DNA of 64,000 bases, from NCBI GenBank assembly GCA_958295805.1, contig OY282373.1, positions 157,001-221,000 of the forward strand. The letters are read 5' to 3'. Below are positions 28,498-50,333 of the stretch, one piece after another; the stretch's first letter is position 1; each line of letters begins with the position of its first letter. Source of the DNA: an uncultured Nitrospirales bacterium (GTDB lineage Bacteria > Nitrospirota > Nitrospiria > Nitrospirales > UBA8639). A program made the position numbers and the translations under genes. Under the pieces are notes generated by a model. The model was not told the origin of the DNA, did not search any database, and saw only the letters and a list, made by a program, of their open reading frames with translations.

Positions 28498-31311
28498 TCA
28501 CTGGATGTTCACCTTTTCCGATAATCCCAGGTCTGTCAGTATTTGCTTCAACTCGTCCACGAGTCCCCGGGCTATCGAGTCATTGACCGTCACTGAGAAT
28601 TCGATGCCGATTTTCAGGTTTGCCCCACTGCGTAACTTGGGCAGCAGCTTCGTGCCCAGCCGGTTCCATGTTTCAGGCGGAACGTCGCCGCTCAGGCGGA
28701 TGGTCCTGGTGGCCTCACTCAACGGCGTCTCGGATTTTGATTCGGATTCCGGATCCAATGACGCTGCCGGTACAGACCGTTCCTCCGAGGAAGGATGGAG
28801 AATAATCGGTTCCTGTTCCGGTTTTGTCCTCAGCGTCATCGCCTTTTCCCTGCGAAGCAGAAACACGCCGGAGTCGAACGTGACTTCTTCAATCGGGACA
28901 GGTTCTTTGAACCACATTCGTTCGTAAGTCCCGTCCGACTGCCGGCCGGAGGCCAAGCCGAAGTCGCCCCGATTCACGAACTCGACGACCTTGGCGCGAA
29001 GCGTGGCGTCCGGATCAAGTAGCCGCGTGAGCGATCCGTTCAGAAAACTCTGGCGAAGACTCGCCATCGGCCATGCGCCGCATTCCATCAAAGCCGGTGG
29101 CCAGTTTCGTTCGATGTACCCGATTCCCACGGAATCATTGAGGATCGCCTGGGATTTCAATGCCGTCAGGACGCGAGCGCACAGCGTTTCGCCTCCGCTC
29201 GAATGCCCCGCACCCAGGTCAATGACCTTCAAGCCGTTCGACTCGTTGCCTGCCTGCGCAGGCAGGCCGTCCGCGATGACGACGAAGCGGTAGCTGCCCC
29301 AAATCTCATCCTTCACGGCTGTTTCAGCATCGGTCACCTTGGATTGGATTTCGGTCCGGTCCGTCCGATCGAAATCCCCGCCCAGCGTGCCATCGGCGAC
29401 CTCCCTGGCCACGCGCTTCCAGGCCAGCATCAATTCGATTTTGTCTCGCAGATCGCGCCCAGGCTTCTTTACGCACCAGACAAGCGAGGCCGGATAGAGC
29501 CTGGGTGACGTGCCGCGCTGGGTTGTCCAGTCACGGATCTGCTCGCGAAGAGTGCCTGTGCCCGCCTGCCCGTGCTGCGGCAGACGGGTCCAGTCCGACT
29601 CCGGATTCACGACAACAAGCGTCAGCTTCGGCGTATCCTGCACTGATAAGCCGTCGGCCGGAAACGGCACGATGGGGAGAGCCGCGCCCCGGTCGAATTC
29701 CCTTTGGACCATTGAACGCATGACCGGGCGAATCTCCGTGTCTTCGTCCAGAGAAGCGCGCCGGTCGCTGACGACCTTTTTCATGGTCGGCTGGTGACTG
29801 ATCTTGAACCCGTCCGACCCGATCCGCCGGATGAAGTAGGTTTTGTCCTCAAGCGCGAGTGCGGCGTTGTCCACCGACGTGGTATCCACATCAGGGTCAC
29901 CGAGCGCAAAGCGCAGTTCCGGCAGGTGAGCCACCTTATCGATCTGGCCGCCGGAAGACTCGAAAAAGATCGTCGTTCCCACCCGTCGGTGGATGTCTCG
30001 CAGGGCGCCCTTTGTATCCGCGTCCAAGGCCCGGGCGTGCGCCTGTGCTCCAGAAACGTCGGCGTCAATGGCGGCGACGAGTCGGGATTCGCCGAGTTGA
30101 CCGAGCACCACGCTACGAAATTCCGGTACTTCGAGCGGTGCGGACCCAAGCGTGATGAGCGGCTCCGTCCGTGCCGTCGTGAACCCTTCCCTGAAGGCCC
30201 AGGAGATCCATTGGGCCAGCATGGCCAGCGTGCCGCGTGTCTGTTGGTATTGGGCCAGCGCCTGCCATTTGCGTTGAAAGACCGAGAGCGTTGACGGATG
30301 GAACGGGAAACACGTTTCAAAACGGGTGCGTAAATATTCCCTGGCCTTGCTCTCCGTTGTGGCGCTGTCCACCGCCGTCCATTCGGACGGTAACTGGGCG
30401 CGACGCTCGAAGCACCAGTCGGCATACGCCTTCGATACCTTCTTCCGTTGGCGGTCGTTGCCGATGTCCTCAAAAAGCCGCCGCCGGATCACTTCGCTGA
30501 TTTCCGCCTCGTCGTTGGCAATCAAATCCTGGGCAACGCGCCGGACCACCTTGGTGATCTTGTCCTGCCACTGCATGTCCCAGTCGGTCATCTCGATCTG
30601 GCTGCGCGGCAGGCTGATGACCGCCGCGCCGTGCGTCGTCGCGGTCGTGGCAACCGTCAGATTCTGGATAAAAGCGTGGAACGGTTCGGCCAATCCACGG
30701 TGCCGATTCAGAAAATTCAAGACCTCATCGAAAAGAAGCAGCACCGGCGCGTTGGCCGCCTTGAAGACGCGGGCAATCGCCTCGGTGCCGGGAGGCGTGG
30801 TCTTGGCCGCGGGGCCGAGTTCCTTGACGCCTTTCTCACCGGCGAGTTGCCGGGCGACGTCGATCCACGGCGTTTCCCTGCCGTCTTGAGGGTCCCAAGC
30901 GTTGCCGACGAAGACGCCGACGCGAGCGTCGGGAGCTTTGGTTATCCCTGCCTCGTTCAGGAGATCCCCCACGCCCGGGAATTGAGAGGCACCCGCGCCG
31001 GCTCGCGCAAGGTGATAGAGCGAGGTGAGCGTATGCGTCTTGCCGCCGCCGAACTGGGTAATCAGGGTCAAAACCGGCGACGTGTTCTCCGTTCGTCCGG
31101 AGAGGCGCCGGAGCACCATGCCGGTATGGTCCTTGAGCGCGCGCGTGAAGCAGGTACGGGCGAAGAACTGTGCCGGATCGCGGTAGTCCTCCGGCGCGGT
31201 CCCAGCGACCACGTGCTCAAGCGCGATAGCGAACTCATCCGGGCTGAACGAACGGCCTTCACGGACTTCCCGGCGGAGCGTAACGACTTTGTACCAGGGT
31301 TCAAGTGCCAT
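28498..31311 (-). CDS. DUF499 ATPase (COG1483-type)
   Basis: A 937-residue AAA+-type ATPase. Walker A is FGGGKTHTLTSLYHLARAGA near residue 88 and Walker B is VLLLFDEVLNFLNRHRG near residue 195. The product opens MALEPWYKVVTLRREVREG, which is family-typical. DUF499 proteins are found next to DUF1156 methylases and SNF2-type helicases in defence islands, exactly as here. Two short dispersed-repeat copies lie inside it in frame (about 29250-29272 and 29563-29590, giving Gly/Gln/Ala-rich segments). It is the last gene of the long minus-strand run; the DUF4276-like gene ends 40 nt upstream. It may power DNA translocation or sensing for the methylase-helicase complex; this is inference. Confidence 0.85.
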   Translation of the reverse strand: MALEPWYKVVTLRREVREGRSFSPDEFAIALEHVVAGTAPEDYRDPAQFFARTCFTRALKDHTGMVLRRLSGRTENTSPVLTLITQFGGGKTHTLTSLYHLARAGAGASQFPGVGDLLNEAGITKAPDARVGVFVGNAWDPQDGRETPWIDVARQLAGEKGVKELGPAAKTTPPGTEAIARVFKAANAPVLLLFDEVLNFLNRHRGLAEPFHAFIQNLTVATTATTHGAAVISLPRSQIEMTDWDMQWQDKITKVVRRVAQDLIANDEAEISEVIRRRLFEDIGNDRQRKKVSKAYADWCFERRAQLPSEWTAVDSATTESKAREYLRTRFETCFPFHPSTLSVFQRKWQALAQYQQTRGTLAMLAQWISWAFREGFTTARTEPLITLGSAPLEVPEFRSVVLGQLGESRLVAAIDADVSGAQAHARALDADTKGALRDIHRRVGTTIFFESSGGQIDKVAHLPELRFALGDPDVDTTSVDNAALALEDKTYFIRRIGSDGFKISHQPTMKKVVSDRRASLDEDTEIRPVMRSMVQREFDRGAALPIVPFPADGLSVQDTPKLTLVVVNPESDWTRLPQHGQAGTGTLREQIRDWTTQRGTSPRLYPASLVWCVKKPGRDLRDKIELMLAWKRVAREVADGTLGGDFDRTDRTEIQSKVTDAETAVKDEIWGSYRFVVIADGLPAQAGNESNGLKVIDLGAGHSSGGETLCARVLTALKSQAILNDSVGIGYIERNWPPALMECGAWPMASLRQSFLNGSLTRLLDPDATLRAKVVEFVNRGDFGLASGRQSDGTYERMWFKEPVPIEEVTFDSGVFLLRREKAMTLRTKPEQEPIILHPSSEERSVPAASLDPESESKSETPLSEATRTIRLSGDVPPETWNRLGTKLLPKLRSGANLKIGIEFSVTVNDSIARGLVDELKQILTDLGLSEKVNIQ

Positions 31312-33559: not shown

Positions 33560-33567
33560 TCCTCAGA

Positions 33568-35619: not shown

Positions 35620-35623
35620 CGGC

Positions 35624-36916
35624 CTATCCCCGGTCCAGATAGTCGCTGTACCAGAGGCCGCCAAGCGGCAGGCCCTCGTCCACCATGGCCTTGACGGTGG
35701 CATCGTCGCTAGCCCTGCGAATGGTCGCAAAACCGTCGGCTCCCTTTTCCAGAATCCATGTTTCCTCGGGTTTGAGCGCGTCAATCAGATAGGGCTGGTG
35801 GGTGGTCACGAAAACCTGCGGCGCATCCTTCTCCCCGGTGGCGTGTCTCCGAAACTCGTCGGCCAGGACCTCCAGCAATTTGTGATACAGACCGTTTTCC
35901 GGTTCTTCGATACAGATGAACGGCGGCGGCGATGGATCGTACAACATCAGCAGGTAGGCAAACACCTTCAGCGTGCCGTCGGACATTTGCTGGGCATAAA
36001 AGGGGTCTTGAAAGCCCTTGTCGTTGAAGCGCAGAAGCAACCGTCCATCCGGGCTTTGTTGCGTATCAATGCGGTCAATACCCGGAACCTTTTCGGCAAT
36101 CGAAGCCAGTATGTTTGCAAATCTGTCCGGGTGTTCACGCTGCATGAACTGCACAACGTTGCCGAGGTTATCTCCGTGGACGTTCAAATGCTTCTGAGGA
36201 CCGGCCAAGGGCAAGCTACGAGCCGCGTCCGGCGTAAAGTAGCTCAGATACCAGCCTTCGAGGAACCGGCGAAAAGCCGCGATGCGGGGATGTTGTTTCA
36301 ACGCGCCAAGCGTGGCGAGGGCGAGCGTGCGTTTGTCCTGAAGTTCAATGAATTCTTCTTCTGCACTTTTTTCTCCACTCAATTGTCTCTTGATCTGAGC
36401 ATCAATCTCATCCAAATCGGACAGTATCCCTTTGTCCTCAATCTGCTGTCCTTGCGCGTATCCTTTCCAGGCAAATCCACGGCCTTTGGTCATTGTGAAG
36501 ATTAAAAAGGACTGGCCCCTTTCCTGTTTTTCACCACGCTGGTAAAGGATTTCGTATGAGACATAGGGACATCCCGAATCGTCCCGATCAATCTCCAAGG
36601 AGTACGTAATGGGTTGAGCATTTGGTTCTTCCCTATAATAGATCTGGAATCTAGTCGGGACATCACTCCCCTGAGAACGGATACGGTCGAATCCGCCGCG
36701 CCCTCGGGCGTCACACGCCTCTTCAACACCTGATTTCAGGCAATCCGCAAGAAAACCAAAGGCATCGAACAGAGAACTCTTACCCACCCCGTTTTTTCCT
36801 ATCACCGCGGTGATCGGAGTCAAGGGTTGTATGGGCTGTGGATGCCACAAATTTCCGAGCACTATGTCTTTCAACACCCGATAATTTGTGATCCAGATGC
36901 CTTCAATTTGTGCCAC
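35624..36916 (-). CDS. ABC/OLD-like ATPase (pair C)
   Basis: A 430-residue ATPase. It starts MAQIEGIWITNYRVLKDIVL. Walker A is VIGKNGVGKSSLFDAFGF near residue 38, Walker B is FICIEEPENGLYHKLLEVL near residue 335, and the switch is VFVTTHQPYLIDAL. A charged, coiled-coil-like stretch lies near residues 165-205 (QIKRQLSGEKSAEEEFIELQ). It is the first member of the tightly packed pair C-B-A run; the region upstream (36917-37109) holds a repeat element. Confidence 0.85.
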   Translation of the reverse strand: MAQIEGIWITNYRVLKDIVLGNLWHPQPIQPLTPITAVIGKNGVGKSSLFDAFGFLADCLKSGVEEACDARGRGGFDRIRSQGSDVPTRFQIYYREEPNAQPITYSLEIDRDDSGCPYVSYEILYQRGEKQERGQSFLIFTMTKGRGFAWKGYAQGQQIEDKGILSDLDEIDAQIKRQLSGEKSAEEEFIELQDKRTLALATLGALKQHPRIAAFRRFLEGWYLSYFTPDAARSLPLAGPQKHLNVHGDNLGNVVQFMQREHPDRFANILASIAEKVPGIDRIDTQQSPDGRLLLRFNDKGFQDPFYAQQMSDGTLKVFAYLLMLYDPSPPPFICIEEPENGLYHKLLEVLADEFRRHATGEKDAPQVFVTTHQPYLIDALKPEETWILEKGADGFATIRRASDDATVKAMVDEGLPLGGLWYSDYLDRG

Positions 36917-37109: not shown

Positions 37110-37370
37110 TCAAGTCGTAGGGGGTGATGAGAGTTCCCGTAGCATTTTCTCACGGATTCCCACGATTGAGAGTCCGACGACTTCACCGTGGACCTCATCG
37201 TATCGGACAACCACACCCTCTCCAATATCAATGCCTACTGCGGGTTTCGGTGAATCAACAGAGATGTACAGAATGTCGGCCGCTCCATCGTAATCCCAAT
37301 CCAGGTTGTACTTGCTTTCGAGAATTCTCAACGCTTCCATAAGATTCTTCTCCCTGATGACGGCCCTCAT
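37110..37370 (-). CDS. DUF2283 small protein
   Basis: An 86-residue protein. The DUF2283 pattern is visible as YDGAADILYISVDSPKPAVG and VVRYDEVHGEVVGLSIVGI. Members often sit next to small toxin-antitoxin-like genes; the molecular role is not known. It overlaps the upstream DUF433 gene by 4 nt (ATGA), so the two are co-translated. Confidence 0.85.
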   Translation of the reverse strand: MRAVIREKNLMEALRILESKYNLDWDYDGAADILYISVDSPKPAVGIDIGEGVVVRYDEVHGEVVGLSIVGIREKMLRELSSPPTT

Positions 37371-37597
37371 TCATGCACGTGCTCACCCGCCAGGGAGCGG
37401 TGGCCAAACAGCAGGCATGCCTGAACGTCCTCGGGGGTTAAATCAGGATATTCCTTGATAATCGTCTCGGCAGTGTCACCGGCCGCCAGCATTCCCAAAA
37501 CGTGCTCCACGGCAATGCGCATGTCACGAATGATCGGTTTGCCGCCAAAGACGTCGGGGCGCGCCGTGATGCGCGACAACAGTTCGGCATGTGTCAT
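37367..37597 (-). CDS. DUF433 small protein, probable antitoxin-type DNA-binding
   Basis: A 76-residue protein with the DUF433 opening SRITARPDVFGGKPIIRDMR and the HTH-like EYPDLTPEDVQACLLFGHR. DUF433 proteins are usually paired with a PIN-like (DUF5615/Mut7-C) toxin; here the partner is DUF2283, so it could be a variant pair or one that lost its toxin. It follows the DUF1156 methylase by 57 nt. Confidence 0.85.
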   Translation of the reverse strand: MTHAELLSRITARPDVFGGKPIIRDMRIAVEHVLGMLAAGDTAETIIKEYPDLTPEDVQACLLFGHRSLAGEHVHE

Positions 37598-37654: not shown

Positions 37655-40600
37655 CTACCTTGGCACCGCCAGGAGCATGGCATCCAGGAGGCGTTTTTCT
37701 TCGCTGGGCGAAGGGTACAAGGCAGATAGGGCGTTGGCAAGGCGGAGGAAGTCGGGGCCGCGTTCCTGTTCGGCCTTGAGGAGATTGCGCAGAGCGTTGG
37801 TCCGGCCACCCGCTTGCAAGAGCATGGCCGCGTGGACGCGGTCCAACGTCGTGGCTTGGCGTTCTCCCACAAGCTCTGCGTCGTCGGGGTCCATGACCGC
37901 TTTCCCACGTCTGCTGCGATTGCGGGCTTTGGGCAGGTGGGCTTTCTCCATTTCCGGGAAGAGCATCTGCTGGAGATTATTCCGAGGGTCACGTTCGATC
38001 CAGTCGGCAACGGCCTTGGCTCCGTCGTCACCGAACAGCGGTTTGGCGCGTTCGGACACGGCCATCAAGCGCACGACGCCCTTCTTCGTTTCGACGATCC
38101 GGCCTTCCCACTTGGGAAGTTCAATGCCTAGAGGTTGTGCGAAGCGGCGCACCACGTCGAAAACCAGGCTGTACCCCTTCGTCCTGCCTTTCGGCGCGGC
38201 TTCATCGTCGTCCTCGCCTGTCTGCCGTTGCACAGGCAGGTCACCGGAATCTGCTTCGCCGTCCTTACCGGAACCGCCGTTCACGCCGTTCTGTCCGTTG
38301 GTGGCTTGCAAAGTCCAGAGAAACAGAGCCGTGAGCCGGGCATCCTCTTCAACGGCCCCAGCCGCACCGTTTCTCGCCTTTGCCTCAGCAGTACCGAGCA
38401 CCTGTTCCAAGGCCGTGCGGCCGACGACTTCCCAGACCTTCTCCAGATATTCGGGCAGACCGACCTCGCGCCCTTCCACGGTTTCGACGACGCGGTAACG
38501 GCTGAATATTTCAAGAGCCGGACCGATGCAGGCAAACACCAGATCCGCACCCCGCACGCCTTCGCCTTGCAGCCGTTCCATCCAGTCGCCGACGCGGATA
38601 GGCAACTTTCGCAAAACTTCTCCCCAATCGCCGACCGGTGCATCGTCGGGCCGGGGCCTGCAGATCAGATGAACGCTGGTGGCGAGCGCGGCGGAGTCAC
38701 GGGCGCGCAGGCGTGAGCCCATCTCGGTAACAATAGGCCAGGAACCGGTGATGGTCCAGCCGCCTCGAATTATGCCGGAGAGCAGCGATTCCCAGCCCTC
38801 GGTGGTCTTGTGCGCGAAGACAACGGACCCGATACCGTCCTCGCTCAACACCCGGCGGCCTTCGGCAAAGGAATCGCCCATCGTGTCTTCAAAGAATACG
38901 CGGTCCTTGACGCGGTTATCGCATTGCTTGGTTTCGTCCTGCACCGCTTCGCGGTCCTTGGGTGACAGCGGGTTGGCTGGATCGAAGGGGTCCCGTAACA
39001 ACGGGTGATCGGGCAAGGCGCGCTTGAGCCAGACAAAAAAGAAGTCTGAAAGGTCGGCGTAGGGAATCGCGTCGTAGTAGGGCGGATCGGTGAACCAGAC
39101 TCCGGCGGCTTGGTCGGGGAGTGGATGCTGGGTGGCGTCGGCGGGTTGGATTTGGCCAATATCGGATTTGAAGCATGATTCAATAACAGTCGCGACCCAA
39201 TCAATCGCACCTACGAGGCTACCAGTAGAGCTAGCAACAAGATTCACTTCAGCAAAATCCCAGATAATAGGAAGAGCTTGGCGTGTGAATGTGTTACCTA
39301 TAAATTCACCGTGTGATACCCATCTGCAATTGGCACTATTGTAGTCTGCCGTTCTGTTTATCACCACAGATGCAGAAGTTCGTATGGCACTTCGAGCTTC
39401 CATGGGGTATCGCTGAACGCTGTTCCCCAACATCACCAACCCTACCTTCTGCCGCGCCGTGAACAGATCGCCCCATTGCAGCATCCCGTACCGCTGCACG
39501 CTGAACGCACGACCGGCACCCGAACCTCCGCCAGCGGGTGTCGGCTCATCCGGCACCGGGCAAAGCCCCTGCTTCCCGCCTGCCTGCGCCGCGGCAGACA
39601 GGCCTGCCTGGGCGTCGCACGCAGACAGGCCTGCCTGGGCCGCAGACGTCGCGGCAGACAGGACGCGCTCCCACTCGTCAAGGATTTCGGCAAGCCGCGT
39701 CTGGGCCTTGCGCACCGCCGCGTAATCGGCATCCGTGGGCAACCGATAGTGGCGGCCAGTCTCGCCGGGCTTGAGCGTCACCACCGCGGTCATGCGCGCG
39801 CCGCCGATGCGCTTCCCTTTGCCGTCGAAGATCACGTCCGCACCGCCGCGCTGCTCGGAAAGCTGGGCCCGCACCCACTCCGGCGGCAAGACGATACCGC
39901 AACACAGGCAGGCCGCCTTCGCCCGCGTGACCGTGCCGCCGCGCACGTCACCGTCACTCTTGGGCTCGAACACCTCAAACTCGACGCATGGCAGCTTGCC
40001 CTTGGGCCGCACCACGTTCGGACGCAACGCCCGTTTGCGTTTCGGCTTCTTGCACAGCCAGAACGAGCGCATCAACGGAATTTCCGCCCCGCAGTTCGGC
40101 GCCTCGCACCGCACGGTGCGCGCCCAGAGATAGGCAATCGGCATAGCTCTATCCCGGTCCTTGGGGTAGAGGTCGGCCAACTCCCGTTCCGCCGCCCGCT
40201 TGATCTCGCCGCCGACCTTGCGCAACTCCTCGGCCAACCCAGGCCCATGGCGTGGAATGTCCTCCAGCATCACCTTGAGGATCAGGCAGGCGACCGGATT
40301 CAAGTCGCTGGCAAACGCCTCGCACCCCAACCGCAACGCCTCCAGCGGAATTGACCCGCCACCGGCAAACGGGTCCACCACCAGCGGCAACTCCTCCCCG
40401 TGGGCGGCCCGCACCAAGCCACGGCCGACTTCCAGATACGCGGCTTTCCCCGCGTTGTCCCAATTAGCGAAGTCGCCGATAAACTTCAACAGCTTCGCCC
40501 GCAACTCCAAGTCGCCGTCTCCCACCGGCCCGGACGTCTTCGGCAACAGATCACGCGCCCGCTTCCTGAAGTCCTCGGGACAGGCCGAATCGCACGGGTC

Positions 40601-40777
40601 CGGCAACAGCAACGCCAACAACACCGCCCGACACGACGCCAACGGCCGCCGCGCCCACCACAAATGCAGCGTCGACGGATGCCCATGCCGAATCGACTTC
40701 TCCCTCGCCGCGTGCTTCGACACCACCGCAATCGGAAACTCCACCTCCGCGAGCCGTTTGCACTGTTTGGGGATCAT
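37655..40777 (-). CDS. DUF1156 DNA methylase (COG1743-type)
   Basis: About 1040 residues from the ATG at 40777, which has GAGG upstream; the frame opens at 40945 but the conserved start is MIPKQCKRLAEVEFPIAVVS. The block HLWWARRPLASCRAVLLALL is the DUF1156 signature. Then come the SAM site DPFAGGGSIPLEALRLGCEA, a zinc-ribbon-like CEAPNCGAEIP and CLCCGIVLPP, and the catalytic motif TDPPYYDAIPYADLSDFF near residue 600. It should methylate adenine in DNA; this is inferred from the DPPY motif. Two in-frame dispersed-repeat copies lie inside it (39580-39665, giving QAGLSA units, and 38216-38241). Probable modification arm of the helicase/DUF499 system. Confidence 0.9.
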   Translation of the reverse strand: MIPKQCKRLAEVEFPIAVVSKHAAREKSIRHGHPSTLHLWWARRPLASCRAVLLALLLPDPCDSACPEDFRKRARDLLPKTSGPVGDGDLELRAKLLKFIGDFANWDNAGKAAYLEVGRGLVRAAHGEELPLVVDPFAGGGSIPLEALRLGCEAFASDLNPVACLILKVMLEDIPRHGPGLAEELRKVGGEIKRAAERELADLYPKDRDRAMPIAYLWARTVRCEAPNCGAEIPLMRSFWLCKKPKRKRALRPNVVRPKGKLPCVEFEVFEPKSDGDVRGGTVTRAKAACLCCGIVLPPEWVRAQLSEQRGGADVIFDGKGKRIGGARMTAVVTLKPGETGRHYRLPTDADYAAVRKAQTRLAEILDEWERVLSAATSAAQAGLSACDAQAGLSAAAQAGGKQGLCPVPDEPTPAGGGSGAGRAFSVQRYGMLQWGDLFTARQKVGLVMLGNSVQRYPMEARSAIRTSASVVINRTADYNSANCRWVSHGEFIGNTFTRQALPIIWDFAEVNLVASSTGSLVGAIDWVATVIESCFKSDIGQIQPADATQHPLPDQAAGVWFTDPPYYDAIPYADLSDFFFVWLKRALPDHPLLRDPFDPANPLSPKDREAVQDETKQCDNRVKDRVFFEDTMGDSFAEGRRVLSEDGIGSVVFAHKTTEGWESLLSGIIRGGWTITGSWPIVTEMGSRLRARDSAALATSVHLICRPRPDDAPVGDWGEVLRKLPIRVGDWMERLQGEGVRGADLVFACIGPALEIFSRYRVVETVEGREVGLPEYLEKVWEVVGRTALEQVLGTAEAKARNGAAGAVEEDARLTALFLWTLQATNGQNGVNGGSGKDGEADSGDLPVQRQTGEDDDEAAPKGRTKGYSLVFDVVRRFAQPLGIELPKWEGRIVETKKGVVRLMAVSERAKPLFGDDGAKAVADWIERDPRNNLQQMLFPEMEKAHLPKARNRSRRGKAVMDPDDAELVGERQATTLDRVHAAMLLQAGGRTNALRNLLKAEQERGPDFLRLANALSALYPSPSEEKRLLDAMLLAVPR
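39580..39665. repeat. Tandem GCAGACAGGCCTGCC repeats inside the DUF1156 gene
   Basis: Three units around GCAGACAGGCCTGCCTGGGC are arranged in tandem and encode an Ala/Gln/Gly-rich linker with QAGLSA repeats. The frame is kept. Confidence 0.8.
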
Positions 40778-40958
40778 GGAGTCCTCACCTAGGAAGATAC
40801 TGGAGACGCCGTCTGCCATTTTTGGTTGAACTCCAATTCTGCAGCCAGTGTCTGCAGAATTGGCCATGCGCGGCAGAATGCCCGTATCTGCAGGATGTTC
40901 CGAACCGAAAATCCTCGGTCGTAACAAGCAAAGTATCGGCGGCAAGCCGTTCGGTAAG

Positions 40959-42266
40959 CTACTTGAACGTCAGTTTCTCGAAGTATTCGTGCAGCTCTTC
41001 CGGTTTGTGACATCGCTCTACATCCGGATCAGTGAGTAGTCTGAGAATCGCGTTCTTGGTGATGCAGCAAACGTCGTTGCGGTACTTTTCCGCTACCTCG
41101 TAACTACCACTGTGAACGATCTTCGACCGAAGGGCATATAGCTCTTTTATCCTCTTCGCAAATTTCATACGCTGATGTCCATTTTCTTCGAATAGCCACG
41201 CCACACGCAGAGAAAGGCGATATGCAAGTTCTTCACTCTGTATTGGCAAAATCAGACATTCCAGAGCTATCGCAAATCGCATGAACGACTCCTCTCGTAT
41301 TTTCGCTACAGTCGCCCTTCCCGCCCAACGAACGGATGTCAAAAGTATTTCTTCGACTCCGTTCCGCTGCTTTGAGAGTAACGAATCTACACGCTCAACG
41401 GCGTTGGCAACCATGCCCTCGGTTTTTTCACGAAGCGTTGCGATAGAAAAGCTTCCTAACGGTCCGTCCGAACCTTTGCTGTATCTAGTATATATAGACC
41501 CGCCTCCAGAGACGACAAAAAGCGATCTGACACCGGATAGTTTCCATCCAGGATGAACGTAGAGCCATGCATGATTGTAGGGGATCATATCCGAGAAAAA
41601 ATTCAAGCATTCTAGCGTGGCGCGGACTTTCCGCTCGGCAAGGGTTATAGCTGCCGTCTTATCGAATGCGGTAACTTTCACCACTGCCGTCGGACGATCC
41701 AAGAGAGATTTTTTTAGTCGATTGATCATCGCAAATTTGTTTGCACGATCATGGCTATGTTTTGTCTGGATAATTTCCTTAAGCCTATGGATTTGATCGC
41801 TATCAAAAACATCAAAACGAACAGAGCCAAAATGGTCTGGAAGAGAAGTAATTTCTAAACCACCGACCTCAATCCAACATTCGTATTCTTCAGACGGAGC
41901 GGTTAAGAATTTCTCCAACTTCTTTAGAGCGTTGTCCAACCGAGTAGACTTATCACCACGACGTTTCGGAATATCTATGGATTCAAAAACTGCGGTCCTA
42001 AGCGCCGTGTCTATGGCTGATTCTGAGCGGTTCTCTTTTTGTGCATATCTTCCAAGCAATTCTCTACAAACTTTTCTATATTTTTTGTATTCCTCCGTAT
42101 TCAGAGAAATGGATCCTTCCCCGTTTCGGGACCACCAATTGTCAGTCTCGGGCAAGAAATCCCAAAGAGGGGATGTATTGTCCGAAAGGTCGCTTAGAAA
42201 GCGCCTGACGAACCCCAATTCGTTGTTATTTGATTGGCTGCTTTGCGGCCTAGATTTCTTTGTCAT
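40959..42266 (-). CDS. HEPN-domain protein, ApeA-like
   Basis: About 435 residues from the ATG at 42266; the longer frame (to 42566) overlaps the antitoxin gene and is not used. The C-terminal part carries RFAIALECLILP, a helical stretch and YALRSKIVHSGSYEV, i.e. the R-x4-H motif of HEPN RNases. That layout matches the Apea-type HEPN domain of single-gene abortive-infection proteins. The N-terminal 250 residues would be the sensing part and have no motif I recognise. The gene is AT-rich compared with the methylase beside it, which suggests a separate arrival. The likely effect on activation is RNA cleavage and growth arrest. Confidence 0.75.
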   Translation of the reverse strand: MTKKSRPQSSQSNNNELGFVRRFLSDLSDNTSPLWDFLPETDNWWSRNGEGSISLNTEEYKKYRKVCRELLGRYAQKENRSESAIDTALRTAVFESIDIPKRRGDKSTRLDNALKKLEKFLTAPSEEYECWIEVGGLEITSLPDHFGSVRFDVFDSDQIHRLKEIIQTKHSHDRANKFAMINRLKKSLLDRPTAVVKVTAFDKTAAITLAERKVRATLECLNFFSDMIPYNHAWLYVHPGWKLSGVRSLFVVSGGGSIYTRYSKGSDGPLGSFSIATLREKTEGMVANAVERVDSLLSKQRNGVEEILLTSVRWAGRATVAKIREESFMRFAIALECLILPIQSEELAYRLSLRVAWLFEENGHQRMKFAKRIKELYALRSKIVHSGSYEVAEKYRNDVCCITKNAILRLLTDPDVERCHKPEELHEYFEKLTFK

Positions 42267-42285
42267 TGGATTGACAGACGTGACG

Positions 42286-42531
42286 CTAACGGTCGCATTT
42301 CCGGTCCGCGTCACGGGCGCGCAGGATGCGGGACGGCGGGACGCGGGTCCCCGTGGCTTCCTTGCGTTCACGAATGCCCTGCAGCCACGCGCCCAGTGAG
42401 GGACGGGACGCGATCCGTTCCAACTCACCGCGGAGGAACTCCTGCATTGATCGGTGTTGTAGCGCCGCACGTGCCGCAAGTTCGTCGCGCACGTCCTCGG
42501 GGACGCCTCGTATGGTAATCTGTACCGACAT
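42286..42531 (-). CDS. Orphan FitA/VapB-type antitoxin (ribbon-helix-helix)
   Basis: An 81-residue protein starting MSVQITIRGVPEDVRDELAA, then RAALQHRSMQEFLRGELERI, the usual FitA/VapB-like start. Its normal partner, a PIN toxin, would follow directly; instead the HEPN gene begins 20 nt later. It is therefore an antitoxin without its toxin, probably a remnant left when new DNA replaced the toxin. A diverged copy of its start is found at 44452. Confidence 0.8.
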   Translation of the reverse strand: MSVQITIRGVPEDVRDELAARAALQHRSMQEFLRGELERIASRPSLGAWLQGIRERKEATGTRVPPSRILRARDADRKCDR

Positions 42532-42674
42532 GCCCGTAGTATGCCCGCAGAGACCGCATCAAGCAAGCAGTTTCCAAGGCAGGGAGAAGATCACTTTGAG
42601 ATGCGTGTGAATCCGTCATTTTATGCTCAACCATAGTCCCCTCCTCCTCATTCATTGAAGAGGCAGTGGCTCAA

Positions 42675-42812
42675 TTTGAGAACCCCCCTCACCCCAGCCC
42701 TCTCCCGCCAGGGGAGAGGGAGAAGAAAACGGAGGGAGAGGGAAACACCCCTCGCCCTCTGGGAGAGGGGCTGGGGTGAAGGTCCGGCCTGCCTATGCCA
42801 CGGCAGACAGGC
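42675..42812. repeat. Compound palindromic repeats (CCCTCTCCC and GCAGACAGG families)
   Basis: CACCCCAGCCCTCTCCC on the left is matched by GGGAGAGGGGCTGGGGTG on the right, a long stem. A GGCCTGCC/GGCAGACAGG element follows directly. The block interrupts the truncated methylase frame. Confidence 0.85.
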
Positions 42813-42943
42813 CCGCAGCGATGAATCCGCCGGAGAATTTCAAGCTGAGACACTACCATTGAAGATGGCTCATTGACGGGTTTCAACACCACCGCAATGT
42901 GAAAATCCACATCCGCCAGCCGCTTGCACTCCTTGGGGATCAT
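42689..42943 (-). pseudogene. Truncated second DUF1156 methylase start
   Basis: The ATG at 42943 opens MIPKECKRLADVDFHIAVV, nearly the same as MIPKQCKRLAEVEFPIAVV of the full methylase at 40777. Similarity stops after about 20 codons, and the frame then runs into repeats and ends. Its ATG overlaps the AlbA_2 stop as ATGA, which suggests that the ancestral operon placed the methylase directly behind the AlbA_2 gene. Confidence 0.8.
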
Positions 42944-44172
42944 GCGGACTTTGGCCCCTTCCATAGGCGGACGATGAAACGGCTCTCTTCCTCAATCAGG
43001 TCGGGCTCGGTGCCGTTATGCTTACGCATGGATTCAATAATTCGATTGCGCACCCCCATGCCAAAATGTTCAACGTAGCCGTAATCGCGAAGGATTTCCT
43101 TCAGAAGTTCGTTTCTGGCGGCCCGCAGCCCTTCCTTCATCTTCTCTACCGTCACGCCATTGGGAAGACGTCCGGGCGAAATGACTTCCAGACGGTCGCG
43201 ATATAAAGAGATTTCGACATCCGTGCCGGCGAGCGTATAGTCACGGTGCGTGACCGCATTCACGATGGCTTCACGAACCGCGTCTAACGGAAGTTCCTTC
43301 TTGCGGTGCCTCCGGCCTCCTTCGAGCCACGCGACGGAACCTACGTTGCGGCTCACGAAGTCTACCGCTCGGTCGATCACGCCTCTCTCCGCAACGCGCT
43401 CTTTTGGCGCGATCACTGAAACCAGGGGTCCTCTGATTATCTCTTCGTCAACGGTATTGTAATCTTTATCGTCTTCCGGGAAGGCAGCGGCCGTCATGCC
43501 GGCCTGTGGAAGCCTGCGATTCGGATTCGTGCCGAAGAGCAGCAAACCCGCGACGGTCGCCATGGTTGTGCCCGCCACTTCCGTGAGGATGTCGATGTTC
43601 GTAAGGATTCGTTGCCACGCCTCAACATCCTCCGTTGCCGGCGCATCGCGCTTCTGAATTTGGAAGTAGTTCTTGATCCGGCCCAAGTCCAGACTCTCCA
43701 ACCCGGTCTCATGAACGGGTTTGATGTCGTAGCGCATGACGCGGGCGGACTGATAGAGTCGTCCTTCTTCTTCGTGACTCGCTTTTCTCGACGTGGTGCC
43801 GACGCGAATATAGGTTTGCCACGCTTTTCCCAGTTTTGCTTTATACGGCTTGTCTGGGCCGTCCGACGACAAGCCAATGATTCCAACAATTTTGTCGTCG
43901 TCAAACGCAATGCACGACCACGAAGGAATAAAGGCTGGTTGGACGTTTTGACGAACAACGTTCATGACCCATTCCTCGGCATCTTCACGAGTCCGTGTCA
44001 GACCGGTCACGCGACCGTCATCTTCCACGCCAAGGAATATCCATCCGCCCTCGAAATTGAGAAGTGCCGAGATTTCTTTTGCAATCGATTCAGCACGCTC
44101 GTTGTCCCGCTTGAACTCGACCCCGGAGTTTTCTCCGTTGGCTATCAGTTCGATCAATTCAGCCCTGTTCAC
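42940..44172 (-). CDS. AlbA_2/Schlafen-type DNA-binding ATP-binding protein (COG2865-type)
   Basis: About 410 residues from GTG at 44172, chosen because GAGG lies 8 nt upstream; a TTG at 44184 is also open. The N-terminal AlbA_2 domain has GENSGVEFKRDNERAESIAK, ALLNFEGGWIFLGVEDDG and the segment YIRVGTTSRKASHEE. The C-terminal GHKL-like part has REAIVNAVTHRDYTLAGTDV and the EHFGMGVRNRIIESM block. Proteins of this type act as transcription regulators or helicase-related factors and are common in defence islands. It sits between pair D and the methylase remnant. Confidence 0.85.
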   Translation of the reverse strand: MNRAELIELIANGENSGVEFKRDNERAESIAKEISALLNFEGGWIFLGVEDDGRVTGLTRTREDAEEWVMNVVRQNVQPAFIPSWSCIAFDDDKIVGIIGLSSDGPDKPYKAKLGKAWQTYIRVGTTSRKASHEEEGRLYQSARVMRYDIKPVHETGLESLDLGRIKNYFQIQKRDAPATEDVEAWQRILTNIDILTEVAGTTMATVAGLLLFGTNPNRRLPQAGMTAAAFPEDDKDYNTVDEEIIRGPLVSVIAPKERVAERGVIDRAVDFVSRNVGSVAWLEGGRRHRKKELPLDAVREAIVNAVTHRDYTLAGTDVEISLYRDRLEVISPGRLPNGVTVEKMKEGLRAARNELLKEILRDYGYVEHFGMGVRNRIIESMRKHNGTEPDLIEEESRFIVRLWKGPKSA

Positions 44173-44180
44173 GATTTTCC

Positions 44181-44348
44181 TCAAAATCCATACTTGCGGC
44201 GGCGTTCAAAGGCTTCCTTGCCGCCTTCAGTCTCTTGACCACGGAACGTGCCGGCGTAGTGGAACGGGTTCACCTGCAACGCGCACCGATGAAACACGGC
44301 GACTGACGGCTTCGTCCCTGTGTGAGCGGTATGACCTTTGGATGCCAC
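44181..44348 (-). pseudogene. Gene remnant, possible N-terminus of a PHP/TrlF-like protein
   Basis: A GTG at 44348 has GGAG 7 nt upstream and opens a 55-codon frame containing VAVFHRCALQVNPFHYAGTF and ending ERRRKYGF. The first block resembles the start of PHP-domain/TrlF-like ATPases as I remember them; the protein stops far short of the usual length, so an internal deletion is likely. Its stop overlaps the upstream edge of the AlbA_2 start region. Assignment is tentative. Confidence 0.5.
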
Positions 44349-44560: not shown

Positions 44561-45163
44561 TCAGCCTCGATCTTCAACGAGACACCTGAGGCAGTCGATA
44601 GTCCGGCGTAAGCTGTCCGCTCGTTGGGAAGCGACATCAGGGCGCCACGTTGTCTTGACGTATTCGATGAGTCTGGATACATACGCCACTCCCACCTGAC
44701 GGCCGCTGCCTTCGCGTGCCACCATGTCCTCGCGGATATTTTTACGTCGAGACCCACGTGCCAAGTTGACTAGGGCGGCCTTGGGCGCATTCAGGCTTTC
44801 GACATTCGCGGGGACTTTGCTTCGCGCAATGCTCAGGTAGTCCGCCAACGTTTCCGCGTCTGCCATCAACCAAGCTTCGACTTCCCGAACGGCGATACGA
44901 AAGCAAAGGCGGGGTGAGGGCTTCGGAAGCCACGCAGCGCGGGCCAGAGGTGCGCAGTCTTGGTCGTTGTCGAGGTCAACAAGCACGATCCAGAGTGAAT
45001 GGCGTCCTGCGTTGTTATAACCCATGAGCTTGTTCAGAACGGACGCCTTGCCATCTTTTCCGTAGACCACACCAACCCGGCCGCCGACGTGGCAGATAAG
45101 TCTGCGGACCACGGCTTCGTCCATGGGCCCTTCCACCGCTGCCGAGATAACCACGGGCCTCAC
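44561..45163 (-). CDS. TOPRIM/DUF4276-like nuclease partner (pair D)
   Basis: A 200-residue protein starting MRPVVISAAVEGPMDEAVVR (TOPRIM Glu) with the DxD motif in WIVLVDLDNDQDC. The RIAVREVEAWLMAD block resembles that of pair C. It starts 4 nt after the upstream ATPase stop, so it is coupled to it. It should form an OLD-like two-gene nuclease. Confidence 0.78.
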   Translation of the reverse strand: MRPVVISAAVEGPMDEAVVRRLICHVGGRVGVVYGKDGKASVLNKLMGYNNAGRHSLWIVLVDLDNDQDCAPLARAAWLPKPSPRLCFRIAVREVEAWLMADAETLADYLSIARSKVPANVESLNAPKAALVNLARGSRRKNIREDMVAREGSGRQVGVAYVSRLIEYVKTTWRPDVASQRADSLRRTIDCLRCLVEDRG

Positions 45164-45167
45164 GTCC

Positions 45168-46340
45168 TCACACGTCGAAAACGCTGAGCCTTTGCACGTG
45201 TTCCGGTTGCGTCTTCGGGATCACGATATCACCAAGCGACAACCCGCCTTCCAGCAGGTCGCGGACTTCCTGGTGCGATCCCGCCGGCGTGACGTCGGTT
45301 CCTTCGGGACCGGGAACGAGCAGAAACGTCTCGTCAAGGCCGATTCCCTCATCGCGTAACAATTCCGGGGAGTGGGTGGTAAGAAATATCTGTCTGCCGG
45401 TTCGTCGTTGTGCGCGGGCCAGCATCTGAGGCAACGTGCAGACGATTTCCGGATGAAGCGAAAGCCCCGGCTCTTCAAGCAGCAACGGTCCTTTACCCCG
45501 GTCCATAGCCGCCCAGAGAAGCCCGATGAGTCGCAACGTTCCATCTGAAAATTGCTCTTCCGTTTGCCAGGCTCCTTGTGGACGCCAATGCCGGTACTTA
45601 CCGCGTAAGTGAGGCGTGCCGCGCTTGTCGTGCCACAATTCGATTTTCTCAAGTTGCGGGACGGCAACGCGAAGGACGTTCTCAAGAGACCTTATACGCT
45701 TTGTTCGGATCGACTCCCGGGTTTTCGCAATCCGATCCAGGAAGTCGCCTCCATACGGATCGTTTGATGGAACCACGGATCGGTCCGGTTCGCGGACGAA
45801 CTGCGGGACGACGTGCGAGTACTGAGTAGACGCGAAAAACGTGGCCACTTGGCGAAACGGCCGGTTCACGTTCACCTGTTCGAGCGCGGTCTGCGTCAGA
45901 CGCTCGCGGTCTTTTCTGTCTTCTTCGTCAGGCCGGCAGACGAGTTCTTCAGCGTCACGGAGCACACGCTCTTTTTTGACCAGCGGCCGCCGTTGGTTAT
46001 CCTGATTGAAAGCAAGTTCGTACTCCCAACGAGCATCGTCGTCCACTCCCCGTATTTCAACGTGAATTTCGATATCGGTCTTCCGACGTGCCGCCAGGCA
46101 GCGAATCGCCGTCATACCGTTGCGCAGCCGGACGGCTTCCTGAAATCCACCACCTGAGGAGGCCAGATCTCGCAGGAATCGAAAGACGTCAAGGAAGTTG
46201 GATTTTCCAGAGGCGTTCGGACCGACGAGAAACATCCGGTACTGAAGGTCGACGTCCAGAGCTGAAAAATTCTTCCAGTTCCGTAGCTGCAGGCGGGAGA
46301 ACTTCAGCCTTTCACTGTTTGCGGGCATTGGTTGTCTCAT
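45168..46340 (-). CDS. ABC/OLD-like ATPase (pair D)
   Basis: A 390-residue ATPase. Walker A is FLVGPNASGKSNFLDVFRFL near residue 36, Walker B is LLLEEPGLSLHPEI near residue 290, and the switch region is IFLTTHSPELLRDE. The signature-like stretch before Walker B is EQFSDGTLRLIGLLW. It follows the helicase by 134 bp and leads into its TOPRIM partner; a GLSLGDI motif near the C-terminus resembles GLPLGGL of pair C, so the two ATPases are likely related. Confidence 0.85.
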   Translation of the reverse strand: MRQPMPANSERLKFSRLQLRNWKNFSALDVDLQYRMFLVGPNASGKSNFLDVFRFLRDLASSGGGFQEAVRLRNGMTAIRCLAARRKTDIEIHVEIRGVDDDARWEYELAFNQDNQRRPLVKKERVLRDAEELVCRPDEEDRKDRERLTQTALEQVNVNRPFRQVATFFASTQYSHVVPQFVREPDRSVVPSNDPYGGDFLDRIAKTRESIRTKRIRSLENVLRVAVPQLEKIELWHDKRGTPHLRGKYRHWRPQGAWQTEEQFSDGTLRLIGLLWAAMDRGKGPLLLEEPGLSLHPEIVCTLPQMLARAQRRTGRQIFLTTHSPELLRDEGIGLDETFLLVPGPEGTDVTPAGSHQEVRDLLEGGLSLGDIVIPKTQPEHVQRLSVFDV

Positions 46341-46474: not shown

Positions 46475-49400
46475 TCAAGGGTTTCGTTCTCCGTACAGGA
46501 GTTCGTCTTCCCAAATGTTCATCGGCTGCTTCAGGGCATCGACGTTCAGCCAATAATGCTGGACCTTGATGACTTCGTGCCACGGGAATCGGGCGAGGTC
46601 TTTGATCGGTTCCTGAAGCTTGGGTTCCGTGGCACAGCCGGTCACAACGTAGAGCCAGTAGCAGTCACGGCGGTCTTCAGCCACCCGTCGCTCATTCGGC
46701 GTGAGCAGGATGCTTCCGGTTTCGCCGGCGAGACCCTTGACCTCAATCAGACGCAACTCGCCGGACTCCAGGTCAAGGCTGGTCACGTCGTACCCCAGGT
46801 TCTTCTCGTGGACGTCATCGACTCGGCGTCCCTGCCCGGTCTCGTGTTCCATGACCACCCGCATGGCCGTCATCTCGGTTTCGGGATTCGGACGCAGGCG
46901 CCGAATATCCAGGGTCTCGCGTTCGGGGTGGGGCAGGATAAGGGCGCTTGCCAGCCGTTGGACGCCTTGTAGCGTCACCGCCTGCTGCCGTTTGAGTTCT
47001 TCGCGCCGGCGCTCGCGCCTTGCCATCACGTCGGCATGGCGGGTTTCGGCCTGAGCCAAGCGCGCCTCGGCGCCAATGACCTTTTTATCCACTTCTTCCG
47101 CCGCACGGCCTATTTCGGCATCGACTCGATGAAGCACCTCAGTCAAGGATAGCTCGACGTGCTCGGTAATGCGTTTGACCTCGGCTAAGCGTTCCGTCCG
47201 AATTTCGTTGATAAAGGGCGTCAAAGCGTGTTCGTTGAGCCAAGCCGTTGCCTCCGGGAGGGTCGCTACGGGCGGCAGAGTCCCAGACGCTCCGGCTAGA
47301 GCCTGCCCTAGGTTTGACACGGGGTTCAGGTTGCCGAGGACGTCCGGTTCACGCAGAGACGGGATGCCGTCATCCGCCAGTTCCACAACGAACAACCGCT
47401 CGTGAATGACGTGTCCGAGACCGTCCACGACCCGCGCCCGGTAGAAGTCGAGGCGTGCCGGTGCCTCGTGCGCCAATGAATGGAAGCAAGCACCCTTGGC
47501 GAAAGCATCATGGCCAAGATCATGGCTATGGCGGCGCAGGGACTCAAACAACGGATGCCCGGGGGTGACCCATTCGAGGTTGTTTTCTTCCGCTGCTTCG
47601 CGGTCCGTGGATAGGCGCGGATAGCGACCGGCCAACTCCGTGTGCTTCCAACCCGGGTCGTGCTCATACTTCTTCAAGCCGGGCGGTGTGCGACCCGGGT
47701 CGAAGGTGTGCGCCATGCTGTTCACCGGCTTCAACGTCAAGGCCGCATCCTGGGCGCACTCCTTGATGAACCGCGCAATTGTTTCGGGTACCACGCGCCG
47801 TTCCTGCGCCCGGGCTCGGCGTTCAATGAGCATGTCGAGGTTGAGTTTCTTGGCAGCCAAGCCTTCCAGCGCCGTCTGACAGATGGCCCGGAAATGACCT
47901 TCATCCACGTCCTGCAACAGCCGGTCTTCGAAATCGGCTTCGCCCAGCTTCCCCGCGTAGTAGTCTCGGAGCACGCGCTCCACGTGGGCGGACGGCAGGA
48001 TTTCACCCACCACGTTGAACACCACGTCGTCATTGAGGGCGTCGCGGATCTCCTGAAGCTTGTCCAGGAGGCGCCGGAGCACTCGTCCCTCAATGGTGTT
48101 GGTCGCCACGAAATTGAAGATCAGGCAATCATGCCGCTGGCCGTAGCGATGGATGCGGCCCATGCGCTGTTCGAGCCGGTTCGGATTCCAGGGAATATCG
48201 TAGTTGAAGAGAATGTGACAACATTGAAGGTTGATGCCTTCGCCCGCGGCCTCGGTGGCCACCAGAACCTGAATGGCGCCTTCGCGGAATTGCTGTTCGG
48301 TGTAGAGCCGGCTCCCGGGTTCGTCGCGCGACCCGGGCTTCATGCCGCCGTGAATGCAGCCGACGCTGAACCCCCAGGCTTGCAATCGCTCCATCAGATA
48401 GTCGAGGGTGTCTTTGAACTCGGTGAAGAGCAGCAGTCGCTGGTCAGGACGGTCGAAGAACCCCTCGTCCTGCATGATGGTCCGAAGGTGCCCGAGTTTC
48501 GCCTCGTTACCTGAGTTTTCAACTTTCATTGCCTCTTCGGCCAGATGCAGGAGTTCGGCGACCTCTCTGCGTACCTGCTCAGCGTTCCCGGTCAGCGTGG
48601 TCGCCTCCAGCATTCTCTCCAGATCCTCGCGCTTGGCGTCCTCGAACTCTTCAAGTTCCTCCAGGTCGGGGAGAGCAGGCGCCGCGGTCTGCACCAAAGT
48701 CTGGGCGCGCTGGAGGCCATCTTCCAGACGCTTGGCACGTTTCTCCAGCGAACGCCGCATGGCGTGCGTGCTGGAGGCCAGCCGCCGTTGGTACAGCGAC
48801 ATCAGGAATCCGACTGCCCGAGCCCGAGGGTCGTCACCCTGCGCGGCAGCCTGGGCGCTCTGCCGTTTCACGAAACGCGTGACGTTCTGATAAAGCTCAA
48901 ATTCAGGACCATCAATGGCAAAGTCTGCGGTGCGTGGGATACGCCTGGTGAAGACCGGCTTCGCGGCCCATGTTCCGTCCTTTTGCCGTTCCGGGAAGTA
49001 CACCATCGCCTCCTTGGTCCGTCGCAGATAGAAGGGTGCTCGCCTCCGTTCCATGGCCTCGCGGATCGATTTCACGTCGGCGTAGGCGTCCCGGTCGAGA
49101 AGTTGCAAGAACAGCGTGAAGTTTTGCGGATCGCCCTTGTGGGGCGTGGCCGTGAGCAGAAGCACGTGATCGGCGCCGTCGCGCAGCAGTTCTCCCAGTC
49201 TGTAGCGTTGGCTCTTGTGCGTCTCATCTCGTGCCGACATGCGGTGCGCCTCGTCAACAATCACCAAGTCCCAATGCACCTGCCGAAGTCCGGGCAAAAT
49301 CTCGGTGCGCTTGGCGAGATCGAGGGAGGTGATGATCTGCTTCTGCTCCAGCCATTGGTTGACGCCGAATTGATCGCGGATATCGCCGCCCTTGAGCACC

Positions 49401-49960
49401 ATGAATTTCTCGTCGAACTTTTCCTTGAGTTCGCGCTGCCACTGGAACGTCAGATTCGCCGGACAGACGACCAGGACCCGCTCAACAAGACCTCGGAGTT
49501 TGAGTTCGCGGACCAGAAGGCCCGCCATGACGGTCTTCCCGGCACCCGCATCGTCGGCAAGCAGAAAGCGCACGCTGGGCAGTTTGAGGAGGTGCTCGTA
49601 AACGGCTTCAAGTTGGTGTGGCAGCGGGTCCACACGCGAGATGGAGAGCCCGAAGTACGGGTCGAATTCGTAGGCGATGCCGAGGGAATAGGCTTGCAGT
49701 CCAAGCCGCAGAAGCCGCCCGTCACCGTCGTAGGAGAGGACAGAGTCGGTGATGGTCAGGTGGGCAACGTCTTCGGACGTGAGCGTGACACGACGAAACT
49801 GCTCAGACCGCTGGCCGACGAGGCCCACAACCAGGCTGTCGCGACCGTTTGAGCGAACGGTCTCCACTCGCATCGGCTCGCTGAACAGCGGGCCCAAGAG
49901 AATCTGTCCTTCCTTGATGACGATTTCAGAACTCAACGGGTCTTCCCTGTTCTCAGCCAT
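46475..49960 (-). CDS. SNF2-type DEAD/DEAH helicase with C-terminal DUF3883-like domain
   Basis: About 1161 residues from the ATG at 49960. The frame is open to 50062, but that ATG is inside the Fis gene and the conserved start is MAENREDPLSSEIVIKEGQI. Motif I is LADDAGAGKTVMAGLLVREL, motif II is IVDEAHR (DEAH box) and motif III is LLTATPHKGDP. The C-terminal helicase half has EAAGEGINLQCCHILFNYDI and QRMGRIHRYGQ. A long coiled-coil-like, Glu/Arg-rich section follows near residues 930-1010 and then a DUF3883-like end (LRLIEVKGLAGETGSILLTP). It is the first large gene of the system and a likely motor that couples DNA recognition to the methylase and DUF499. Confidence 0.88.
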   Translation of the reverse strand: MAENREDPLSSEIVIKEGQILLGPLFSEPMRVETVRSNGRDSLVVGLVGQRSEQFRRVTLTSEDVAHLTITDSVLSYDGDGRLLRLGLQAYSLGIAYEFDPYFGLSISRVDPLPHQLEAVYEHLLKLPSVRFLLADDAGAGKTVMAGLLVRELKLRGLVERVLVVCPANLTFQWQRELKEKFDEKFMVLKGGDIRDQFGVNQWLEQKQIITSLDLAKRTEILPGLRQVHWDLVIVDEAHRMSARDETHKSQRYRLGELLRDGADHVLLLTATPHKGDPQNFTLFLQLLDRDAYADVKSIREAMERRRAPFYLRRTKEAMVYFPERQKDGTWAAKPVFTRRIPRTADFAIDGPEFELYQNVTRFVKRQSAQAAAQGDDPRARAVGFLMSLYQRRLASSTHAMRRSLEKRAKRLEDGLQRAQTLVQTAAPALPDLEELEEFEDAKREDLERMLEATTLTGNAEQVRREVAELLHLAEEAMKVENSGNEAKLGHLRTIMQDEGFFDRPDQRLLLFTEFKDTLDYLMERLQAWGFSVGCIHGGMKPGSRDEPGSRLYTEQQFREGAIQVLVATEAAGEGINLQCCHILFNYDIPWNPNRLEQRMGRIHRYGQRHDCLIFNFVATNTIEGRVLRRLLDKLQEIRDALNDDVVFNVVGEILPSAHVERVLRDYYAGKLGEADFEDRLLQDVDEGHFRAICQTALEGLAAKKLNLDMLIERRARAQERRVVPETIARFIKECAQDAALTLKPVNSMAHTFDPGRTPPGLKKYEHDPGWKHTELAGRYPRLSTDREAAEENNLEWVTPGHPLFESLRRHSHDLGHDAFAKGACFHSLAHEAPARLDFYRARVVDGLGHVIHERLFVVELADDGIPSLREPDVLGNLNPVSNLGQALAGASGTLPPVATLPEATAWLNEHALTPFINEIRTERLAEVKRITEHVELSLTEVLHRVDAEIGRAAEEVDKKVIGAEARLAQAETRHADVMARRERRREELKRQQAVTLQGVQRLASALILPHPERETLDIRRLRPNPETEMTAMRVVMEHETGQGRRVDDVHEKNLGYDVTSLDLESGELRLIEVKGLAGETGSILLTPNERRVAEDRRDCYWLYVVTGCATEPKLQEPIKDLARFPWHEVIKVQHYWLNVDALKQPMNIWEDELLYGERNP

Positions 49961-49997
49961 TCTGCCTTGGGACTCTTCCGGGATCGGCCATAGCTTG

Positions 49998-50333
49998 TTA
50001 TCCAGATTGACGGTGCTGGCGAGATTGCGAGCGGCGTGTGACGGGAATGCGGTAGGTCTCAATTTTCTTTCGGAGGGTGTTGCGGTGCATACCGAGCAGT
50101 TGCGCGGCTTGAATCTGGTTGCCGCCCGTTTCTCGAAGCGCGTGTTGGATCAACGGCCGTTCGACGGCTTGGATGAGGGTCGCGTGTAAACTTGTGGCCG
50201 AACTCGCTTTCATGGCTCGAACGAACTCGCTGAATTTTGACTCAATGTAGTCTTCGAGAGTCAGATCCTTCGCTTCGCTCAGGATGACAGATTGTTGACG
50301 ATCTGGTTTGTCTTTGGCTTGCTGCGGCGTCAT
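49998..50333 (-). CDS. Fis-family DNA-binding protein
   Basis: A 111-residue protein. The C-terminal half is a Fis-type HTH: RPLIQHALRETGGNQIQAAQ and LLGMHRNTLRKKIETY. The segment VILSEAKDL near residues 16-24 is encoded by a dispersed repeat (about 50263-50294), so the N-terminal 30 residues are probably not ancestral. It is a nucleoid or transcription regulator placed just before the helicase; it may control the island or may be a host gene at its edge. Confidence 0.8.
   Translation of the reverse strand: MTPQQAKDKPDRQQSVILSEAKDLTLEDYIESKFSEFVRAMKASSATSLHATLIQAVERPLIQHALRETGGNQIQAAQLLGMHRNTLRKKIETYRIPVTRRSQSRQHRQSG
50263..50294. repeat. Dispersed repeat (GATCCTTCGCTTCGCTCAGG) inside the Fis gene
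   Basis: The element reads GATCCTTCGCTTCGCTCAGG then ATGACA. A mirror copy, TGTCATCCTGAGCAACGCGA, is in mfd at about 52812. Both keep the frame. Confidence 0.75.

Follow-up and report, generated by a model that had tools for sequence, protein, structure and literature searches.

The gene at 40959..42266 (minus strand) encodes a 435-aa protein with a predicted HEPN domain at roughly residues 289-434, a catalytic motif R380-x4-H385 and an N-terminal part of ~270 aa of unassigned fold. In our reading, the product is an ApeA-like HEPN ribonuclease, standalone, and acts within an Hma system as its embedded backup (abortive-infection) effector; the gene arrived with hmaB and probably sits on an old fitAB promoter. 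We give this reading a probability of about 65%. It is built from sequence comparison: the motif is conserved, the protein is kin to ApeA, an Hma system surrounds the gene, HmaB is the neighbour in two phyla and the HmaB proteins share ancestry, and the locus keeps a relic of hmaB and a junction at a toxin start.

The window (the whole 64,000-nucleotide stretch of DNA analysed) holds the gene as an open frame of 435 codons, most likely starting at the ATG at 42266, and there is one copy in the 2.9-Mb genome. The first-pass annotation had described an AT-rich frame between an antitoxin and a methylase, and this is borne out. A FitA-type antitoxin lies on one side and the adenine methylase HmaB on the other, and the GC content is 45.8%, compared with 62.8% for HmaB, 54.8% for AlbA and 65.9% for FitA (neighbours overall, 55-66%). 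Scanning genome contigs brought up a single close homologue, which is 57-58% identical and comes from a Latescibacterota metagenome-assembled genome (L005). There, too, the HEPN gene is AT-rich (49.3% GC, versus 62.5% for HmaB of that genome). The gene therefore seems to be AT-rich in a lasting way, and its composition does more than mark a recent arrival. Differences between the two genes fall on codon positions 1, 2 and 3 at 0.29, 0.25 and 0.54, a third-position excess that points to constraint. The open reading frame could instead be a decaying or non-functional passenger, since it is AT-rich, the locus holds relics and a lost toxin, and a scan called no consensus promoter. The long open frame, the retained catalytic residues, 58% protein identity across phyla and the third-position excess (0.54 versus 0.25-0.29) make this extremely improbable.

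R380-S-K-I-V-H385 is the sole R-x4-H within the protein. Because shuffling yields a bare R-x4-H in 58% of cases, the motif by itself is no proof. The longer pattern Y-x2-R-S-x-hyd-hyd-H appeared in none of 5000 shuffles. Residues E336, A356, Y377, R380, S381 and H385 are invariant across 14 relatives, and with R380 and H385 the 14 homologues carry the conserved R-x4-6-H motif of the HEPN superfamily. The HEPN motif in a helical context, as originally proposed, is supported. Pfam, NCBIfam and PADLOC gave no reliable match to the protein. One unnamed PHROGs family matches it at 3e-08, motif included, and some similar plasmid proteins carry the public annotation 'HEPN domain-containing protein'. 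A profile of 13 distant relatives, from which the protein and its close homologue were left out, recovers the protein at 3.7e-25 (best of 2000 shuffles, 0.48). Because these 13 were first found via the protein or its profile, the recovery shows consistency more than independent evidence.

An independent link between this family and ApeA comes from a search of the PDB with the 14-sequence alignment, which covered 177,635 sequences and gave ApeA proteins as all five of its best matches. The E-values are 1.6e-4 for Ec4ApeA, 0.04-0.14 for Ec2ApeA and 0.5 for Ec3ApeA, and in the alignments shown the R-x4-H is in register with Ec4ApeA and Ec2ApeA. A two-sequence profile of the protein and its close homologue (A1) does not by itself hit ApeA, so the kinship of the protein to ApeA is transitive. 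Antibody light chains, the sole PDB matches with the protein as a single query, were dismissed as chance. The HEPN_Apea model PF18739 matches nothing in the genome even at E<=10, and the Pfam scans likewise gave none. PF18739 members in related genomes read R-N-x3-H, versus R-S-x3-H in the family here. An hhalign comparison with PF18739 members put the motifs in register at a probability of 5.8%, which is low and was not taken as proof. We describe the protein as a putative divergent ApeA-like HEPN, by distant and transitive homology, and do not assign it to PF18739. The claim that it is ApeA-type thus stands as distant homology and fails as membership of that family.

Like E. coli ApeA (Ec2ApeA, Ec3ApeA and Ec4ApeA; PDB 9hxd, 9hxj and 9hxm), the protein has a C-terminal HEPN domain with Y-x2-R-x4-H and a preceding ALE-L helix. 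Unlike ApeA, it is missed by PF18739 and PADLOC and sits in an Hma locus, and the chains of Ec2ApeA and Ec4ApeA are longer (593-619 aa). The N-terminal half had been said to lack any match. It has no family match, and Pfam finds no match to the beta-rich ApeA-NTD1, but the relative L004, another HEPN protein, aligns weakly over profile positions 126-390. This suggests that the two proteins have a common N-terminal module and qualifies the earlier statement. AlphaFold models made from a two-sequence alignment reach a mean pLDDT of 34 for the full protein and 46 for an all-helical domain model, both too low to be usable. Foldseek matches obtained with the latter are noise.

The profile matches identify the methylase beside the HEPN gene as HmaB of a complete Hma system, DUF499-centred and BREX-related. 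HmaB, a DUF1156 DNA adenine methylase (37655..40777, minus strand; HmaB model, 2.1e-115), lies directly downstream, and its true start is likely the ATG at 40777 rather than the TTG at 40945. HmaA, an SNF2 helicase with a C-terminal NOV_C domain (46475..50062, minus strand; HmaA model, 7.3e-170), lies upstream. HmaC, a DUF499 AAA+ ATPase of 937 aa in which no fused N-terminal HEPN was recognised (28498..31311, minus strand; HmaC model, 1.7e-93), completes the set within one locus. The slot between HmaA and HmaB also holds a Schlafen AlbA_2 and HATPase_c_4 protein (42940..44184, minus strand; Pfam). A HEC-01 pair of AAA_21 ATPase and DUF4276 (44561..46340, minus strand; Pfam and PADLOC) is embedded in the locus as well; HEC stands for Hma-embedded candidate. 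The genes embedded between the Hma cores include AAA_21/DUF4276 pairs, Schlafen AlbA_2 and DUF433/DUF2283. The HEPN gene thus resembles such embedded genes in using the HmaA-HmaB slot of variable effector genes, and differs from them in that no PADLOC model matches its product.

Several other features of Hma loci were observed. Three separate AAA_21 and DUF4276 pairs matching HEC-01 models occur in this one locus (31351-33104, 34957-36916 and 44561-46340). At 33092-34953, also inside the locus, an OLD-type ATPase (NsnB-like) is followed by a short ORF resembling a PIN-type nuclease. The DUF433/DUF2283 pair lies downstream of hmaB (37110-37597), and a DUF433 counterpart, 85% identical, stands beside the broken Hma locus of a genus-mate (L041:1-7778), which is fragmented, with HmaC, HmaB in several pieces and a partial HmaA. 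Just downstream of hmaC is an AT-rich ORF of 488 aa (26647-28113; ~44% GC) with a P-loop-like stretch. Elsewhere in the phylum, the corresponding Hma slots are filled by AlbA_2, AAA_13, SIR2 with HerA, RmuC, DUF3800 and TIR genes; AAA with DUF4276 is also among the contents of other Hma slots. Examples are HerA, SIR2 and RmuC (L043:1182-5792), a weak SIR2 with TIR (L039:11973-17818), AAA_13 (PDC-S06; L036:10308-12611) and DUF3800 (L040:6800-7576). A 446-aa gene between HmaA and HmaB in a further locus (L044:9849-11186) has no Pfam or PADLOC match.

Position relative to hmaB is what the two close family members share. In the Latescibacterota genome the HEPN homologue and hmaB share a strand, with the HEPN gene directly upstream; a HEC-01-like ATPase with DUF4276 comes next, and then hmaC. 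There is no antitoxin, and the available stretch shows no hmaA. Both close members, from two phyla, therefore hold the same place in an Hma locus, in a small sample: only two are known, and the adjacency rests on n=2. The first-pass annotation had treated the antitoxin as the key neighbour. The close relative lacks it, yet keeps the adjacency to HmaB, so that claim is not supported and is probably wrong. That reading overlooked the Hma system, for which embedded HEPN effectors are already known (PMC12839542), and the link to the antitoxin is secondary to that with HmaB.

A tree built from 14 HmaB proteins places HmaB of the window in a clade with those of the Latescibacterota locus and a genus-mate (L035), with support of 1.0 (0.99 for the N-terminal part, 0.95 for the C-terminal part). 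In the HmaC tree, by comparison, the protein of the window joins L040 (0.955) instead of L005. The genus-mate in the HmaB clade has no HEPN gene within 640 bases before hmaB, and none of the other surveyed HmaB loci carries this HEPN family. The association thus appears in two phyla but is optional. Overlapping sets of genomes from the phylum (395), order (235) and class (269) held no more close members and gave just weak HEPN-domain relatives. Viral contigs gave no relative with the HEPN protein, HmaB and profiles A1 and A3 as queries, and phages gave no match to the HEPN protein. Distant relatives occur on both plasmids and chromosomes, where the sequence stretches read show no Hma, and ApeA is a single-gene system. 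Both points favour a self-sufficient ApeA-like defence gene that sits in a defence island and acts independently of Hma. We consider this rather unlikely, because the two close members, though from different phyla, both have hmaB as the gene directly downstream and their HmaB proteins share ancestry.

A trace of how the HEPN gene may have entered the Hma locus remains upstream of the antitoxin. What is left of the 5' end of an older hmaB (MIPKECKRLADVDFHIAVV; 42877..42944, minus strand) overlaps the AlbA stop and is a direct repeat of the live hmaB start, with 84% identity over 68 nt at a distance of 2166 bases. The two copies enclose a REP-like palindrome, FitA, HEPN and a spacer of 181 bases. 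The palindrome, a REP/MITE-like element with inverted repeats I1 and I3 and no assigned strand, occupies 42686..42782 between the relic and the antitoxin. In the simplest reading, recombination at the conserved 5' end of hmaB would have brought in a piece with HEPN and hmaB and ousted the older hmaB. HEPN and hmaB probably travel as a cassette. The spacer between them has no copy elsewhere in the genome besides its own inverted repeat. A 15-bp inverted repeat in the spacer (40833-40863) is 93% complementary and may be an operator or hairpin.

The upstream neighbour is an orphan FitA-type (ribbon-helix-helix) antitoxin of 81 aa (42286..42531, minus strand; FitA-like_RHH, 5.8e-10). The position of the HEPN gene after an antitoxin without its toxin had been called odd. 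Of the 13 genus-mates examined, nine carry this FitA, at 73-81% identity. Three of these (L071, L072 and L073) have the full 133-aa PIN toxin after FitA, with a start overlapping the antitoxin stop. The toxin is interrupted in L075, and its body is missing in the other five. An intact toxin is therefore absent in six of nine FitA-bearing genus-mates, which makes an orphan FitA common in the genus and not odd in itself.

Here, DNA homology to the genus-mates runs from ~42569 to ~42288. It takes in a promoter-like region, the antitoxin and the opening bases of the toxin, and goes no further. The promoter-like region (42538..42566, minus strand), TTGCTT-N17-CATACT, aligns with TTGCTG-N17-CATAAT of the relatives; it is weak in consensus, and its function as the fitA promoter is presumed. 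The start of the lost FitB toxin persists as an 11-codon ORF, MRPLASRLSIQ* (42263..42298, minus strand), whose TGA overlaps the HEPN ATG (ATGA). After the antitoxin, where FitAB has its PIN toxin, the HEPN gene is found instead. Elsewhere in the genome, a search for FitB gave only remote PIN proteins, ~30-33% identical. The locus is thus like FitAB in its antitoxin, promoter region and toxin start codon, and unlike it in that the PIN toxin is gone and replaced by the HEPN gene, which, by this alignment, now occupies the former toxin place of an old toxin-antitoxin pair.

It had been suggested that the HEPN gene took over the promoter. Since the gene follows FitA at the point where the toxin was cut off, the old fitAB promoter probably drives its transcription, and its translation is probably coupled. 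The junction is compatible with both, and the ATGA overlap can be chance. A promoter scan called no consensus site. Takeover is plausible: the kept promoter region, antitoxin and toxin start speak for it, as does the overlap. A simple palindrome search of the antitoxin upstream/operator region found only weak inverted repeats, here and in relatives.

The same junction allows for a larger role of the antitoxin. FitA and HEPN could form a chimeric toxin-antitoxin pair, in which FitA, now without FitB, restrains the ribonuclease or its expression. FitA is intact, including its C-terminal tail, and promoter region, antitoxin and toxin start are kept, with HEPN in ATGA overlap at the beginning of the toxin. 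We regard such a pair as very unlikely. The close relative has no antitoxin, the partner of FitA is a PIN-fold toxin, and nothing points to FitA binding HEPN. In addition, an orphan FitA unaccompanied by HEPN is common among genus-mates (toxin body missing in five of nine, interrupted in one), and the inverted repeats upstream of the antitoxin are only weak. A related idea is a chimeric control unit, in which HEPN replaced the toxin at the start codon and the orphan FitA and promoter regulate, by transcription or binding, a suicide effector of Hma. This we find doubtful, though slightly less so than the pair.

Returning to the embedded backup effector, ribonuclease activity, a trigger and phage protection are what we infer for the HEPN protein. 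The C-terminal HEPN domain would dimerise to form a composite R-x4-H active site. This site would cut RNA, probably tRNA or mRNA. The ribonuclease would be kept inactive until infection is signalled, either through the N-terminal domain or by Hma losing its function. The gene would have come together with hmaB, which replaced an older hmaB. A 2026 preprint, by its title as cited in PMC13405049, has deoxydinucleotides activating ApeA. Speculatively, a nuclease-bearing Hma system could supply deoxydinucleotide-type fragments as the trigger.

Hma is a candidate defence system (PMC8565338) that has been renamed Type-1 BR (PMC12839542). Parts of the latter source describe standalone HEPN ribonucleases among the auxiliary effectors of Type-1 BR and fused HEPN domains on many DUF499 ATPases (PMC12839542). 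The gene here resembles these auxiliary effectors in lying inside or immediately beside a core of helicase, methylase and DUF499 ATPase. It differs in that its family is absent from the described parts of PMC12839542 and in that it comes after an orphan FitA antitoxin. In 2013, HEPN ribonucleases linked to restriction-modification were proposed as a second line of defence, with PrrC as the model (PMC3710099). Like PrrC beside PrrI, the putative HEPN ribonuclease here adjoins a modification system; unlike in PrrC, no ABC ATPase domain was detected in the protein, and its guarding role is putative. The locus adds one more case to an arrangement that is already known and is not a new type of system; for such systems, effectors with a backup abortive-infection role are on record.

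With this gene, the exchangeable slots of Hma/BR systems gain a HEPN effector family that escapes Pfam, NCBIfam and PADLOC. The locus suggests a cassette mode of swapping, in which a live hmaB enters together with an effector and the 5' stub of the old hmaB stays behind. It is also a natural test case for two questions: whether toxin-antitoxin promoters can be reused for abortive-infection effectors, and whether the failure of a core defence system is something that ApeA-type HEPN proteins react to.
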